Source: an uncultured Alphaproteobacteria bacterium
GTDB lineage: Bacteria > Pseudomonadota > Alphaproteobacteria > UBA6615
Direction: 5' to 3'
NCBI GenBank assembly: GCA_943787745.1
Contig: CALSNJ010000001.1
Coordinates: forward strand, 248,001 to 312,000
DNA length: 64,000 bases
This document shows positions 52,264-61,528 of this stretch, piece by piece; position 1 is the first letter of the stretch; each line of letters opens with the position of its first letter. The notes beneath the pieces were generated by a model. The model had not been told where the DNA came from. It was given only the letters and a program-made list of their open reading frames with translations, and did no database searches. The position numbers were made by a program, and so were the translations under genes.

Positions 52264-53497
52264 ATGGTTCACGTCCGTGAAATGCCTGAACATTTGCGCG
52301 ATGCGCTGATCAATCAGGAGTTACCGGAATACGGTGACACGCCCTGGGTGACACCAAAACCGCTGGATGAGTGCCGGGTGGCATTGATTTCCACGGCCGG
52401 CCTGCATCGGCGCGAAGACCCGCCGTTTACGCCGGGTGCGGGTGATTATCGGATCATCCCTGATGACATACGACATGGATGAACTCACTATGAGCCATGT
52501 GTCGACCAATTTTGATCGCAGCGGTTTCTATCAGGACGTGAACACATCCTTTCCGATCGACCGGCTGCGCGAGTTCGCCGAAGAAGGCGTGATCGGCTCG
52601 GTTGCCGGCCGTCATTTTTCCTTCATGGGGGCCACACCGCCGACGGTGATGGAGCCGATCGCCCGTGATCTTGCAAAGGTTCTCAAGGCAGACAATGTCG
52701 ACGCTGTTGCGCTCGTCCCTGTCTGACCCCAATGCACGCGCGCCGTGGGCGGGCTTGCACACTATCTCGAAGAAGAAGGCATTCCGACAACGCAGATCGC
52801 GTTGATCCGCAAACATGCCGAAGAAATCAAACCACCGCGCACACTCGCGGTGCCCTTTGAACTGGGCCGCCCATTGGGTGCGCCCAACGAGCCGGATTTT
52901 CAGCGTCGCGTTCTGCGTGAGTGTCTTGAGCTTCTGGCGCGCGAATCCGGTCCTGTTCTTGAGGACTTCCCCGATGACGCCCCGGGTGCCGAACCTGATC
53001 CGGAGGGCTGGGCCTGCCCGGTTAATTTTGCGGCACCTGTCGAAGACCTCAGTGATGAAGACTTGATCCGTCAGGCTCTCGAACAGGAAATCGCGCTGCT
53101 ACGTCCCTGGTATGAGGAATCCAAGCAGAATCGCAAAGGCCGGACGAATTTCGGTATCTCGGGTATGACACCCGAGGAAATCGCGGCGTATATCGCCAAG
53201 GTCACCGTTGCGCGCGAGGATTCGGGATCCCCAATTGCGGACAAGCCGCCGCATCTTGCCTTCAAGCATATGGCTGATGACATGCGTTACTACTATATGG
53301 AGGCTGCTATCGCGCGCCCCGATTCGCGGGTTAGTGATTTGGAGATAGGCAACTGGCTGTGGGGGGAGACCACGCTGGGCAAGGTTCTGGTGGTGATCCG
53401 GGACTGGGCGATGGAGACCGAGCATCCGGGCTTCAAGGCGCTTGCGCCTACGGCCATGGTGCCAACCCATCAGCGGCATCGCACAATCCACGGCTAG
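52264..53497 (+). CDS. GrdB-like reductase-family selenoprotein, UGA at Sec154, with a frameshift
   Basis: The sequence matches the glycine/sarcosine/betaine reductase selenoprotein B family: RVALISTAGLHRREDPPF, then MSHVSTNFDRSGFYQDVN and FPIDRLREFAEEGVIGSVAGRHFSFMG, then VALVPV-U-PQCTRAVGGLAHYLEEEGIPT. TGA at 52724-52726 stands where the family has Sec or Cys, giving Sec154-x-x-Cys157; the frame continues to 53497 without a stop. Separately, one extra base near 52459-52474 breaks the frame between PDD and YDMDEL, so the true state is uncertain. No GrdA, GrdC or thioredoxin partner is nearby, so it is probably not a standard glycine reductase. Converges on selD. Confidence 0.8.
52727..52749 (+). 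promoter_or_regulatory. Candidate SECIS hairpin of the GrdB-like gene
   Basis: Directly after the UGA, CACG (52735-52738) pairs with CGTG (52744-52747) around a 5-base loop, and CC (52729-52730) pairs with GG (52748-52749) across a 4-base bulge. Position suits a bacterial SECIS element, but the stem is short. Confidence 0.4.
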
Positions 53498-55710
53498 TTG
53501 CGGTAGCTGATCTGGCATTCGGAACTTTTGCGTTTTTGGACCTTTCCGATGATTGCGGCAGCTGGCGCGGCACCCGCGTGCAGGTCAGCAAGGCATACTT
53601 CTGCGCGATGTTCGGGAACGCTGAACAGCAGTCCCCCAGACGTCTGCGGGTCGAACAGCAACGGATGGACCGGATGATTTGTTGGTGCGAAAGCATGACC
53701 GGCTGAGCCTTCATTGCCGGGACGTAGCGTGCTTTCAACACCTTGACGGGACAGTTCGATAGCGCCAGCGAGAACGGGTATTGCGTCCAGATCAATTTCG
53801 GCAGAGGTCGAGGACGCCTCAAGCATTTCCAGAAGATGACCGGCAAGCCCGAACCCGGTGACATCGGTTCCGGCCGTTGCGCTGTGGTCACGCATGACTT
53901 GCACACATGGTTTTAGCGAGGTTTGCATGGATGTCAGTGCAGCATCGATCCAGTCACCACGTGCTTCGGCGCGCATATCTGCAGCAAATAGAACGCCGGT
54001 TCCAATCGGTTTGGTCAGGATCAAGGCGTCGCCGGGACGGAGACCGCCTTTTCGGATGATGGTCTCAGGTGCTGCATAGCCGTTGATGGTCAGGCCGAAG
54101 GCCATTTCTGCACCTTCGCCGGTGTGACCTCCGGCAAGCACAGCGCCGGCTTCGGCAAGGGTTTCGGTCGCCCCGGCGAGCAGCTGATAAAGATCGCCAC
54201 CCATTTTGTCGTCATCACCATGGGGCAACATGACGGCCGCCAGAGCTGTGTGGGGGTCGGCACCCATAGCAAAGATGTCGCCCAGACAATGATTCGCCGC
54301 GATCCGTCCAAACAGGAAGGGGTCGTCGATAAAGGCCCGAAACTGATCCACTGTCTGGATCAGGGATTTTCCCGCCGGAGGCGTCATGACGGCAGCGTCG
54401 TCGGGCGCGTCGAGGCCCTGATCGAGACCTTCAATTGTCTGGATTGGAAGCCGGCTTAATGCACGGCGCAGGACGGGAGCGGGGACCTTGGCGCCACAGC
54501 CACCGCAGCGCATGTCCTCCAGCACGTCGTTTGTTGCGCCTTTGCCCGCATTCATGTCGGGCAGCTCCTGATACTTCTTCATCCACCGCCGGTCGATCCA
54601 GTCCTTCCAGCGCCAGACCCAATGGCCTTCAAAAGCAAAAGGCCCACGCGCGGCAATCGCATAGTGTTCGCCGGTGGTGATCAGCGCGAGGGTTTGGCCC
54701 TGCGGTTTGAATATTCTCAGCGCTTGCCCCGTCGCAACGCGTCGCAGGTTTTCTGCCAGATAGGGCCCCTGCCGAACTGCGTAGACGCCCGCCTTTGGCA
54801 GGTTGTGACTGTCCATTGACGCAGCATCTCCGACCGCAAACACCTGCGGGTGTGACGGGGAGCGCAAATGGTCGTCCACCCGGACAAACCCGTGATCGTC
54901 GCGTGCGAGGCTTGTTTCGGCCAGCCATTTGGGTGGACCAGCGGAGGTCACCAATATTGTCTGGTCGCTGGGTACAGACTTGTCGCCCGCGAGTTCGACG
55001 CGCGTCGCAGTAATGCTTGTGACAGCTGCGCCGAGGCGAAGGTCGATGTTGCGTGTCTTCAGGGCGCGCACCATCTTTGCCCGTGCCGCCGCGTTGTAAC
55101 GGGGCAACAGCACGTTGTTGGCCTCAATCAGCGTGAAGCTGAATGACCCAGGCTCGCGGCCCAGTTCTTTGGCCGCTTCCCGAAGACGGAAGCTCAGTCC
55201 GAGAATCAGCTCAACGCCACCAGCCCCGCCCCCAACGACGGTCAGATGAAACGGTCCCTCATGCGTGCGAATTCGCTCGGTGAGCCCGTGATAGGCCTCG
55301 AGAAACCGATCGATGGGTTTGACGGGAAGGGCGTATTCCGCGCCTTCAATATCTAGCGTGGAGGGCGTGGACCCGGTGTCGATCGACAGCAGGTCGAAGG
55401 GAATGGCCGGTCGGCCCGCGAGCGCCAGAAAGTTATTGTCGAGATCGATGCCGGTTGCCGGTGCATGGATCAGCCGTGCTTTGGCAAACGCTGCCAGCGG
55501 TCGCAGATCAATATGGGCTTCGGCCTGAGAATAGTGACCGGCGATGTATCCGGGGATCATGCCGGAATAGGGGGTCAGCATGTCGCGCGCGATCAGGGTC
55601 AGGCGTACGCCTGGTTCGGGCTTCATGCCAAAACGCTTGAGCACATCAACATGACTGTGGCCGCCGCCAACCAGAACGATGTCGCGGCGAATGGGAACCG
55701 TTGGCGTCAT
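53494..55710 (-). CDS. selD: NADH dehydrogenase-like FAD domain fused to selenide, water dikinase (SelD)
   Basis: A 738-residue fusion. Residues 1-370 form a pyridine-nucleotide-disulfide/NDH-2-like FAD domain (DIVLVGGGHSHVDVL, LTVVGGGAGGVEL, VFAVGDAA). From about 395 follows SelD, which makes selenophosphate from selenide and ATP for Sec insertion and tRNA selenation: MRCGGCGAK with Cys402, Cys405 and Lys408, TVDQFRAFIDDPFLFGRIAANHCLGDIFAMGA, AGGHTGEGAEM and TDVTGFGLAGHLLEM. This fusion is known in many proteobacteria. ATG 55710 is chosen since the longer frame runs into the tRNA gene. Confidence 0.95.
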   Translation of the reverse strand: MTPTVPIRRDIVLVGGGHSHVDVLKRFGMKPEPGVRLTLIARDMLTPYSGMIPGYIAGHYSQAEAHIDLRPLAAFAKARLIHAPATGIDLDNNFLALAGRPAIPFDLLSIDTGSTPSTLDIEGAEYALPVKPIDRFLEAYHGLTERIRTHEGPFHLTVVGGGAGGVELILGLSFRLREAAKELGREPGSFSFTLIEANNVLLPRYNAAARAKMVRALKTRNIDLRLGAAVTSITATRVELAGDKSVPSDQTILVTSAGPPKWLAETSLARDDHGFVRVDDHLRSPSHPQVFAVGDAASMDSHNLPKAGVYAVRQGPYLAENLRRVATGQALRIFKPQGQTLALITTGEHYAIAARGPFAFEGHWVWRWKDWIDRRWMKKYQELPDMNAGKGATNDVLEDMRCGGCGAKVPAPVLRRALSRLPIQTIEGLDQGLDAPDDAAVMTPPAGKSLIQTVDQFRAFIDDPFLFGRIAANHCLGDIFAMGADPHTALAAVMLPHGDDDKMGGDLYQLLAGATETLAEAGAVLAGGHTGEGAEMAFGLTINGYAAPETIIRKGGLRPGDALILTKPIGTGVLFAADMRAEARGDWIDAALTSMQTSLKPCVQVMRDHSATAGTDVTGFGLAGHLLEMLEASSTSAEIDLDAIPVLAGAIELSRQGVESTLRPGNEGSAGHAFAPTNHPVHPLLFDPQTSGGLLFSVPEHRAEVCLADLHAGAAPAAAIIGKVQKRKSSECQISYRN

Positions 55711-55806
55711 GAATCTTTCAGTCTGACTGGTGCCGGTTGCTGGCGTTGGTTGTACGTCACCATAAACACCCAAGGGGCTGAACCCTTCCCGCAATAACGC
55801 GGAAAT

Positions 55807-55902
55807 TGGCGGAAGAGGGTGGGAGTCGAACCCACCAGGCACGTCTAACGCCCCTCACCGGTTTTGAAGACCGGGCGCCCCACCGGGGAACGGTCCTCCT
55901 CC
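55807..55902 (-). tRNA. selC: tRNA-Sec (anticodon UCA)
   Basis: A 96-base tRNA with all Sec hallmarks: an 8-bp acceptor (GGAGGAGG with CCTCTTCC), anticodon stem CCGGT/ACCGG around loop CTTCAAA (anticodon TCA), a long variable arm, a T-arm with GGGTTCGACTCCC and encoded GCCA end. It lies 97 bases upstream of selD on the same strand, and the two may share a transcript. It decodes the three in-frame UGA codons in this window. Confidence 0.96.
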
Positions 55903-57857: not shown

Positions 57858-58619
57858 TCAGATTCCGCCGCCTTCATCAAACAAAGTGGAAAGGTCGGCT
57901 TTGACCTGTGCGCCCACACGTCCGACGTCTTCGCCCTCCCGCGAACGCGGTCGCGGGGCGTCGACATCATAGCTTCGGACAACCTTCGCCGGGGCACCGC
58001 CCAACAACAGAACGCGATCGCCCAGATAAACGGCTTCGTCTATGTCGTGGGTGACGAAGAGGATTGATTTTCCGGTCTCTTCCCAGATGCGCAGGAGTTC
58101 GTCCTGCAGGGATTGCCGGGTGATCGCGTCGAGCGCACCGAAGGGTTCGTCCATCAACAGAAGGTCCGGATCGACCGCCAACCCACGCGCTATGCCGACT
58201 CGCTGTCGCTGACCACCCGAAAGTTCATGGGCCCATCGGTCGCCATAGTCGGCAAGTCCGACGAGTTTCAGGGCATCTGCGATGCGTTGGTTGCGCGCAT
58301 CGACGGAGACAGACAGACCTTCCAGGCCGAGCGCGACATTGTCGCTGACCTTTCGCCATGGCATCAGGCGCGCTTCCTGAAACACCATCGCGATCTCCCG
58401 ACGATCAGTCCGGGTTTCGATCTCATGCGAGATCGTGCCGGCTGACGGCGCCAGAAGGTCCGCGATCACACGCAGGAGTGTTGATTTTCCAGCGCCTGAG
58501 GCACCCACGACGATCACAAACTCCCCGCGCTCGATGGAAAGATCGATATCCGCAAAGACAGGCTTTTCGGCACCGGGAAAAGTCGCCGCAATGCCGTTCA
58601 GGTTCACTATCGCTGCCAT
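57858..58619 (-). CDS. ABC importer ATP-binding subunit (nitrate/sulfonate/taurine type)
   Basis: A 253-residue ATPase: Walker A GASGAGKSTLLR, signature LSGGQRQRVGIARGLA, Walker B LLLMDEPFGALD and switch His in FVTHDIDEAVYLGD, typical of SsuB/TauB/NrtD. Its 5' end overlaps the permease stop by 13 bases. Confidence 0.93.
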   Translation of the reverse strand: MAAIVNLNGIAATFPGAEKPVFADIDLSIERGEFVIVVGASGAGKSTLLRVIADLLAPSAGTISHEIETRTDRREIAMVFQEARLMPWRKVSDNVALGLEGLSVSVDARNQRIADALKLVGLADYGDRWAHELSGGQRQRVGIARGLAVDPDLLLMDEPFGALDAITRQSLQDELLRIWEETGKSILFVTHDIDEAVYLGDRVLLLGGAPAKVVRSYDVDAPRPRSREGEDVGRVGAQVKADLSTLFDEGGGI

Positions 58620-59353
58620 CGGAGCACCCGGTTCTGAGCGGCCACGAACAGCATGTCACTGATGCCGTAAAGCAACGCGATGGTCAGCATGTAGACTATA
58701 ACGACTTCGGTCGCGAGAAGGCCCGCGGCCTCGTTCATGCGCTGACCAATCCCTGTGATTCCGAACAGCTCGGCCGCGACAACTGTCATCCAGCCCTGTC
58801 CGAGGCCCGCCCTCAGGCCTGAGAGAATTCCGGGAGCGGCGGCGGGCAGAATTACCTTGCGCAGGCTTGCACCCAGCGAGCGATGGCCAAAGGATGAGGC
58901 CAGCTCGATCAGATCCGGGTCGACAGCGCGGACGGCGGTATAGGCTGTAAAATAGTTGATCCAGAACACACCGATCGCAATGATGAATGCGGCGGCTGTT
59001 TCGCTAATCCCGAACCAGATGATCGCGAACGGGATCCATGCCAGCGGCGGGATCGGGCGCAACAATCGCGCAAGCCAGCTTTGGACGTCATCGAGAACCG
59101 GGAACAGCGCGACGGCTGCGCCGACGATGACTCCCAGCAGCGAACCGCTGATCAGACCGATCAGGTAATGGTTCAGGCTGGCGAGCACCATTTGGTGCCA
59201 GAATCCCAGCGTGACTTCTGAAATTAGCGTAGCGGGCAGTTTGCTGGGTGCGGGCAGCAATGTGGCTTCGACCACACCGCTGCGCGCAACCAACTCCCAG
59301 ATCAGGAGAAAAGCAAAAAGTCCGCCCGCACCAAGAAGGGTGCGTCTGGACAT
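58607..59353 (-). CDS. ABC importer permease (SsuC/TauC-like)
   Basis: A 248-residue membrane protein with about six segments. The EAA-like cytoplasmic loop is ASSFGHRSLGASLRKVILPAAAPGILSGLRAGLGQGWMTVVAAEL, the typical contact with the ATPase. Lies 3 bases after the binding-protein gene. Confidence 0.92.
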   Translation of the reverse strand: MSRRTLLGAGGLFAFLLIWELVARSGVVEATLLPAPSKLPATLISEVTLGFWHQMVLASLNHYLIGLISGSLLGVIVGAAVALFPVLDDVQSWLARLLRPIPPLAWIPFAIIWFGISETAAAFIIAIGVFWINYFTAYTAVRAVDPDLIELASSFGHRSLGASLRKVILPAAAPGILSGLRAGLGQGWMTVVAAELFGITGIGQRMNEAAGLLATEVVIVYMLTIALLYGISDMLFVAAQNRVLRWQR

Positions 59354-59356
59354 GGG

Positions 59357-60385
59357 TTACTCCGCCACCTGCTTGTAGAAGGTCACATCAAACAGTTCAT
59401 CGAGGGGGACCGGTTTTTTGAGAGTCCCGATCTCGGCTGAGAAGTCATGCATGACCTTGGTTGCCGCGATGATGGCATTGGGATCGGCGACAAAGTTGTT
59501 GGACGCAGATCGGAGGGCGCGCTGGATCACGGCAGGCGGAATCAGGCCCTGACCGAGGGCGGCATGAATATGCTTTGCCGCTCGGTCGGGGTCTTCGTTG
59601 ATCAGCTTGGTGGCACGTACATGCAGGTCAACAAGCTTGGCCACGGCGTCGCGATCGGATGCGATGATGTTTTCACGGACGGCGAGAACCGCGCCGGGCT
59701 GTTTGGGAAGCATTTCGCCGCCTGTGACAGCAATCCGGGCATCGGGTAATTTTTCGCTGATGATGGTCAGGATGGGCTCGAGGATCGAGGCGGCATCGAC
59801 GGATTTGGCCAGCATGGCCTGCTGCACTTTGCCGGCACCCATACCGACGATCTCGACATCGTCTTCGGTCAACCCGGCGACTTTGATCAGCCAGTGGCGT
59901 AGCACGGTGTCGGGGACTGACCCTTTTGGGAGCGAAGCAATACGCGGCTTGCGGCCGGTATCCGCGGTGAATTTCCGCACACCTTCGGCCGGTGTGGCTG
60001 CGGCGGCCATCGTGGCCCCAAAATCACCGCGGGTGATCACGGCAATCTGTTCGATGCCGGCACTGGCCACAACCTTGAGGGGGACGCCGCGGGCACGGGA
60101 AACCATGGCCGGTCCGATGCCAAAATACATCACATCAAAATCACCCGATGCGATGGCCTGAACGATTGCGGGGCCGGAGGAAAACTTGGTGAGCTCAAGC
60201 TCAAGTCCGGCTTCCTTGGTCCAGCCTTCACCTTCCATGACGAAGAGCTGTGCCATCGGCATGATCGGAATATAGGCGACTTTCAGCTTTGTCTGCGCTG
60301 AGGCGCCGGTCTGTGACAACAGACCGATCGCCAGCACAAACACGGCCAAGCCGCGGAGAACGGGGTTATTTTGAAGATTTCGCAT
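59357..60385 (-). CDS. ABC importer substrate-binding protein (NMT1/SsuA-like)
   Basis: A 342-residue periplasmic binding protein of the NMT1/THI5 group, with signal peptide (VFVLAIGLLSQTGASA) and VAYIPIMPMAQLFVMEGEGW, SGPAIVQAIASGDFDVMYFGIGPAM and IASLPKGSVPDTVLRHWL. Likely binds an aliphatic sulfonate, nitrate or similar small ligand. First gene of the importer operon. An inverted-repeat-rich, AT-rich region sits just upstream. Confidence 0.92.
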   Translation of the reverse strand: MRNLQNNPVLRGLAVFVLAIGLLSQTGASAQTKLKVAYIPIMPMAQLFVMEGEGWTKEAGLELELTKFSSGPAIVQAIASGDFDVMYFGIGPAMVSRARGVPLKVVASAGIEQIAVITRGDFGATMAAAATPAEGVRKFTADTGRKPRIASLPKGSVPDTVLRHWLIKVAGLTEDDVEIVGMGAGKVQQAMLAKSVDAASILEPILTIISEKLPDARIAVTGGEMLPKQPGAVLAVRENIIASDRDAVAKLVDLHVRATKLINEDPDRAAKHIHAALGQGLIPPAVIQRALRSASNNFVADPNAIIAATKVMHDFSAEIGTLKKPVPLDELFDVTFYKQVAE

Positions 60386-61051: not shown

Positions 61052-61528
61052 CTACTTGTTTTTCATGGACTCGTAGAAATTGACCATCTTGACGATGTCT
61101 TCAGCATCCATCCGGCCGAGTGGCCCATCGCTGTAACTTGCGGCCATCACATTGCCATCGGGTCCCAAAACGAATTCCGAAGGCTGGATGATCTGGCGAC
61201 GGTCTTCCCAGTAGGAACCAAGCGTGTCAGCCATTTCGCGGGTTACACCGTAACCAACGGGGAAGTTTACTTCATCAGCAACTTCCTGGGCTTTCTCGAT
61301 TGGATCGACACTGGCGGCGACAACGGTCACGCCAATTTTTTCAAATTCTGCTTTCTGGTTTGCGAAGCCGACTAACTGACGGCGACAATAGGGTCACCAG
61401 TGGCCACGATAAAACAGGATGACCCGGTATCCATCACCGAGACCATCCGGCAGGTCGAGCGTTCCACCATCGACGAGGTTAAGCGTCATCTTGGGGAAGG
61501 CCGAACCAATGCCAAGCTTGTCTGACAT
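61052..61528 (-). CDS. Peroxiredoxin-like selenoprotein with in-frame UGA (Sec45)
   Basis: Reading through TGA at 61394-61396 joins two blocks into one 158-residue AhpC/TSA-type protein: MSDKLGIGSAFPKMTL ... VILFYRGHW-U-PYCRRQLVGFANQKAEF ... VTVVAASVDPIEKAQ ... FVLGPDGNVMAASYSDGPLGR. The family motif is YRGHWCPYCRRQL, so Sec replaces the first Cys: Sec45-x-x-Cys48. Family role: thiol peroxidase or thioredoxin-like reduction of peroxides; Sec raises reactivity. A hairpin follows the UGA. Conventional reading gives only the first 44 residues plus a false second gene. Confidence 0.88.
61367..61383 (-). promoter_or_regulatory. Candidate SECIS hairpin of the peroxiredoxin-like gene
   Basis: Ten bases past the UGA, GCCG (61383-61380) pairs with CGGC (61370-61367) around a 9-base loop with a C-G pair inside and GUU in the loop. 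Consistent in position and shape with bacterial SECIS elements, but short. Confidence 0.45.

Follow-up and report, generated by a model that had tools for sequence, protein, structure and literature searches.

The window analysed here, a stretch of 64,000 nucleotides from an uncultured alphaproteobacterium, carries a minus-strand gene for a 158-residue peroxiredoxin-like (Prx-like) protein whose reading frame is interrupted by a single TGA. The initial annotation had placed this gene at the correct coordinates while leaving its strand unstated, and its assignment to the peroxiredoxin-like proteins is borne out by the read-through product, which matches PF00578 (AhpC-TSA) with an E value of 3.8e-22 over residues 7-128, a match that spans the TGA. 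The frame starts at an ATG (61528-61526) and closes with a TAG that ends at 61052. As also claimed, the TGA occupies the first Cys codon of a YRGHWCPYC motif, here codon 45 within FYRGHW-U-PYC, and 113 open residues follow it; C48 is the sole cysteine of the product. Reading with translation table 11 splits the gene, as had been anticipated for a standard pipeline, into two: a 64-aa ORF that runs up to the TGA, and a second, spurious one of 92 aa that begins at an internal GTG (61330..61052).

Features at the locus and in the selenocysteine machinery. Coordinates are window positions unless prefixed C1, for which the window ends at C1:312000.
Feature	Position	Strand	Basis and remarks
Prx-like UxxC selenoprotein gene (predicted)	61528..61052	minus	158 aa, predicted Sec at residue 45; homologue comparison, PF00578
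In-frame UGA, predicted to be read as selenocysteine (U45)	61396-61394	minus	TGA in class homologues with >=50% identity; TGC/TGT in distant ones
Predicted bacterial SECIS hairpin, GCCGUC-AGUUA-GUCGGC	61367..61383	minus	Apical loop 16 nt past UGA; covariation, consensus fold
tRNA-Sec (selC), anticodon UCA	55807..55902	minus	Rfam RF01852, 71.2 bits; ARAGORN
selD, Ndh-SelD fusion	53494..55842	minus	Pyridine nucleotide-disulphide oxidoreductase and AIRS domains; CGGC (CxxC) in SelD
Second selenoprotein gene, PrdB/GrdB-like (predicted)	52264..53497	plus	UGA at 52724-52726 (VPV-U-PQC)
selB	C1:313946-315817		458 bits; beyond window end
selA	C1:315853-317196		582 bits; beyond window end

Between these features, a taurine/sulfonate/nitrate-type ABC transporter (57858-60385, minus strand) is encoded by genes for an ATPase, a permease and an SsuA-like binding protein, and a small cupin gene lies between it and the Prx-like gene. 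The UGA of the PrdB/GrdB-like gene is conserved in most relatives within the family. The assembled copy of this gene contains one frameshift near 52465-52480, which puts its N-terminal part in another frame, and relatives have longer open frames. Since the GTG start of the Ndh-SelD ORF overlaps the tRNA-Sec gene, the true start of the fusion is probably further 3'. Ndh-SelD fusions have been reported to be abundant in marine samples, and both this fusion and PrdB are described in published selenoprotein surveys (PMC2398784).

The genome thus encodes tRNA-Sec, SelA, SelB and SelD, the complement by which a bacterium is recognised as able to make selenoproteins. Among genomes of the order, selA scored above its family cut-off in all 16 that carry the UGA gene, and the two genes lie ~5-6 kb apart on the same contig in eight of these 16. 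The one genome of the order with a distant Cys homologue (G013) gave only a weak, sub-cut-off selA match. Elsewhere, selA was present in the genomes of two further UGA loci (L039 and L041) and absent from the genome of the Cys locus nearest by search score (L043). TGA serves as an ordinary stop in other genes here, including selA, the ABC ATPase gene and the cupin gene.

That a frame stays open beyond a TGA does not in itself speak for selenocysteine, because of the 2336 TGA codons in the six frames of the window, 139 (6%) have 113 or more open codons behind them; ORF length was rejected as an argument on this ground. Read-through frames with a minimum of 15 codons ahead of a TGA and 45 behind it number 197 in the window. 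Judged by sequence comparison, what goes beyond chance is the two-sided homology around the TGA, the conservation of UGA across genomes and the purifying selection downstream, where dN was 0.05-0.16 and dS ranged from 0.34 to saturated. The frame after the TGA is therefore conserved as well as open, as the initial annotation had it, and its homology is kept in close relatives.

Homologues were found in 17 of 24 genomes of the order, with one internal TGA in 16 of the 17, and in 26 of 385 sampled genomes of the class, 21 of them with TGA. The TGA-bearing class homologues share 50-99% identity with the gene; at 36-39%, the remaining five lack the TGA and carry Cys. By codon extraction, all close relatives have the TGA precisely at codon 45 and distant homologues have TGC or TGT, which is the outcome that the proposed alignment with Cys-containing homologues called for. 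Of the two grounds for dismissal that had been named, a TGC or TGT on resequencing and a stop in close relatives with no homology beyond it, neither came about: in close relatives the codon is TGA, and every one of them retains the homology downstream. Homologues in another phylum, the Desulfobacterota, carry UGA at the same codon, and those at L142-L145 (40-44% identity) also have the AGUU loop of the hairpin described below on a stem of different sequence. The gene thus shows the pattern that marks bacterial selenoprotein genes: an in-frame UGA flanked by conserved homology, with Cys in its place in homologues. No further UGA homologues were found in a phylum-wide sample of 398 genomes, and a plasmid collection contained relatives only below 60% identity. 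Relatives of named origin came mostly from metagenome-assembled genomes. Within the Alphaproteobacteria, the Prx-like selenoprotein is common in one order and occurs here and there in the rest of the class. At least four changes between Sec and Cys were required by a maximum-likelihood tree of 67 proteins, with UGA forms in Alphaproteobacteria and Desulfobacterota, but 18 of its forks are open and several of its long branches meet, so the number and direction of these changes are unsure. The genome of the window also carries a second Prx-like UxxC selenoprotein gene (L003, G000:C2 ~1350.6-1351.3 kb), which encodes a 215-aa protein with VFRGHW-UGA-PYC and a PF00578 match of E 4.3e-25 and has its own candidate hairpin downstream of its UGA.

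Synonymous change is reduced just after the UGA, with observed-to-expected ratios of 0.53 and 0.43 in the five-codon bins from 0 to +9 compared to 0.58-1.0 in the other bins (the lowest of these being -10 to -6), and codons +4 to +9 form the centre of the constraint. RNAalifold gives a consensus hairpin of 6 bp with loop AGUU[A/G]; the hairpin begins 10 nt after the UGA and has its loop 16 nt after it. When Desulfobacterota sequences were included in the alignment, 94% of cells were paired and three pairs had changed on both sides, giving a covariation score of 0.437 versus 0.240 +/- 0.031 for shuffles (0 of 500 as high) and at most 0.153 for six slid controls. The AGUU loop together with at least five of the six pairs occurred in 34 of 35 distinct UGA sequences, the sole exception being a distant homologue of 26% identity (L146), whereas the loop occurred in none of 25 Cys sequences, one of which formed five pairs. 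The hairpin of the window itself forms five of six pairs, pair 18-26 being a U-U mismatch. When the 58 nt surrounding the UGA were folded as a single sequence, no structure reached significance (z -0.97), and the 18-nt hairpin by itself gave z -3.0 and an MFE of -8.4 kcal/mol; the signal emerges only from comparative analysis and from the 18-nt hairpin alone, and single-sequence folding on its own would be unconvincing. Published bSECIS elements are defined by a loop of 3-9 nt, a stem of 4-16 bp, a G in the first two loop bases, a spacing of 16-37 nt and an MFE of -7.5 or below (PMC13188914). The candidate agrees with this description, with a 5-nt loop, a G within the first two loop positions followed by U, a 16-nt spacing and the MFE given above.

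This comparative evidence makes it very probable that UGA codon 45 inserts selenocysteine. Together, the Sec machinery and the covarying SECIS hairpin after the UGA support the earlier proposal that U45-x-x-C48 is a selenium form of the redox site. If the TGA came from faulty sequencing or assembly, or from a nonsense mutation of recent date, the codon would truly be TGC or TGT or the gene would be a pseudogene, and the frameshifted PrdB-like neighbour indicates that this genome may contain errors or decay. However, the same TGA recurs in independently assembled genomes of the genus, the family, the class and another phylum, and purifying selection downstream argues against both an error and a pseudogene; assembly error was rejected because of the conservation in independent genomes, and we consider the whole account exceedingly improbable. 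Decoding of UGA as Trp or Cys, known from other organisms, could proceed without selenium through a changed code or a near-cognate suppressor, but ordinary genes end at TGA here, for which reason an altered genetic code was rejected, and both the complete set of tRNA-Sec, SelA, SelB and SelD and a SECIS-type hairpin specific to UGA genes speak against selenium-free decoding, leaving this highly improbable. Termination and Sec insertion compete in selenoprotein genes generally, consistent with a regulatory UGA that would yield a 44-residue product with a role of its own when selenium is lacking and the full-length protein when it is present. This is very unlikely, as purifying selection clearly acts on the part beyond the UGA, which completes the fold, and there is no hint of a use for the 44-residue fragment.

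In an AlphaFold2 model of the product (pLDDT 94.4), residue 45 sits directly before helix 46-57; in thioredoxin-fold proteins, the attacking residue usually sits just before the first active-site helix. The top structural matches are peroxiredoxins (Z 19-21 over ~150 residues), and the closest solved fold is that of Bcp4 (3hjp; Z 21.0, rmsd 2.1 over 152 residues). Alignment to peroxiredoxins puts U45 on the Thr of TxxC and C48 on the peroxidatic Cys, and alignment to ResA puts U45-P-Y-C48 on WCPxC; these two alignments suggest a thioredoxin-like UxxC site on a peroxiredoxin scaffold. The initial description of codon 45 as the catalytic cysteine therefore holds for a CxxC (thioredoxin/ResA-like) reading and fails for the peroxiredoxin alignment, where C48 is the peroxidatic residue. 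In place of the canonical PxxxTxxC site the protein has R41-x-x-x-U45-x-x-C48, keeping the Cys. Because R41 and U45 replace the peroxiredoxin Pro and Thr, peroxidase activity is not to be presumed.

We propose that the ribosome, SelB, tRNA-Sec and the SECIS hairpin would place Sec at residue 45, at the N-terminus of the first active-site helix, where it would pair with Cys48 as a UxxC site. U45 may then attack a disulfide or peroxide, C48 would resolve the intermediate to give a U45-C48 selenenylsulfide, and a thioredoxin-like reductant or partner would regenerate the enzyme. We favour this order of events, with U45 attacking first, at moderate confidence. The converse, also compatible with Sec insertion, would make the protein a true peroxidase, with C48 attacking peroxide and U45 as the resolving residue. 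The alignment of C48 to the peroxidatic Cys and of U45 to Thr, the peroxiredoxin-like fold and an invariant Arg (R139) are all in its favour, but the WUPYC motif resembles the WCPxC of ResA, Sec is a better nucleophile than Cys, and the peroxiredoxin Pro and Thr are missing, and we regard attack by C48 as unlikely. With U45 as the presumed attacking residue, the predicted role is that of a Prx-like thiol:disulfide oxidoreductase and/or thiol peroxidase, and the product is probably a single-domain, cytosolic selenoprotein of peroxiredoxin fold; no N-terminal signal or anchor is evident in its sequence. A more specific scenario, which we offer tentatively, is a hybrid enzyme on a peroxiredoxin scaffold: Sec, standing where the Thr used to be, would attack peroxide or disulfide, and the former peroxidatic Cys would resolve. 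Sec and Cys would have replaced each other repeatedly across phyla, and the SECIS hairpin would be confined to Sec lineages.

These results document a selenoprotein well in an alphaproteobacterial lineage that has received little study; its gene often lies within ~6 kb of selA, and standard annotation breaks it in two. Sec and Cys forms can be compared cleanly, as they occur in nature, within this family, in which a covarying hairpin is retained only where UGA is used.

Sec-containing peroxiredoxins of the TxxU type share the fold and Pfam family of the protein, but their Sec is at the peroxidatic position, three residues later than in its UxxC. ResA/TlpA-type thiol-disulfide oxidoreductases have a WCPxC-type site at a helix N-terminus and recognisable sequence similarity; unlike them, the protein has no evident N-terminal signal or anchor, and the whole-chain folds among the matches listed are peroxiredoxins. 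UGC-containing Prx-like and UxxS peroxiredoxin-like (cd02970) selenoproteins use a related scaffold with Sec, in a motif that differs from that of this gene (PMC9312934, PMC13188914).

The novelty implied by the initial annotation is low, since UxxC Prx-like selenoproteins have already been published (PMC1088965, PMC2398784, PMC9312934, PMC13188914). The Sargasso Sea survey of 2005 described a 'Prx-like protein family' (COG0450), a distant Prx relative with UXXC instead of TXXU and 22 selenoproteins (PMC1088965), the GOS survey of 2008 listed 225 selenoproteins as 'Prx-like 1' (pfam00578, UxxC; PMC2398784), and later reviews list a 'Prx-like thiol:disulfide oxidoreductase' (PMC13188914, PMC9312934). 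Because these surveys and reviews describe this kind of selenoprotein, the gene belongs to it and adds one member to a family known since ~2005. It shares with that family the PF00578 domain, Sec in a UxxC motif (W-U-P-Y-C), common Cys homologues and an occurrence in marine bacteria, and its SECIS element directly after the UGA is as in bacterial selenoprotein genes generally; its subfamily identity is based on domain and motif. A survey of 2006 listed only one selenoprotein family for Alphaproteobacteria (PMC1794560), whereas here the Prx-like UxxC family is widespread in one order of this class.
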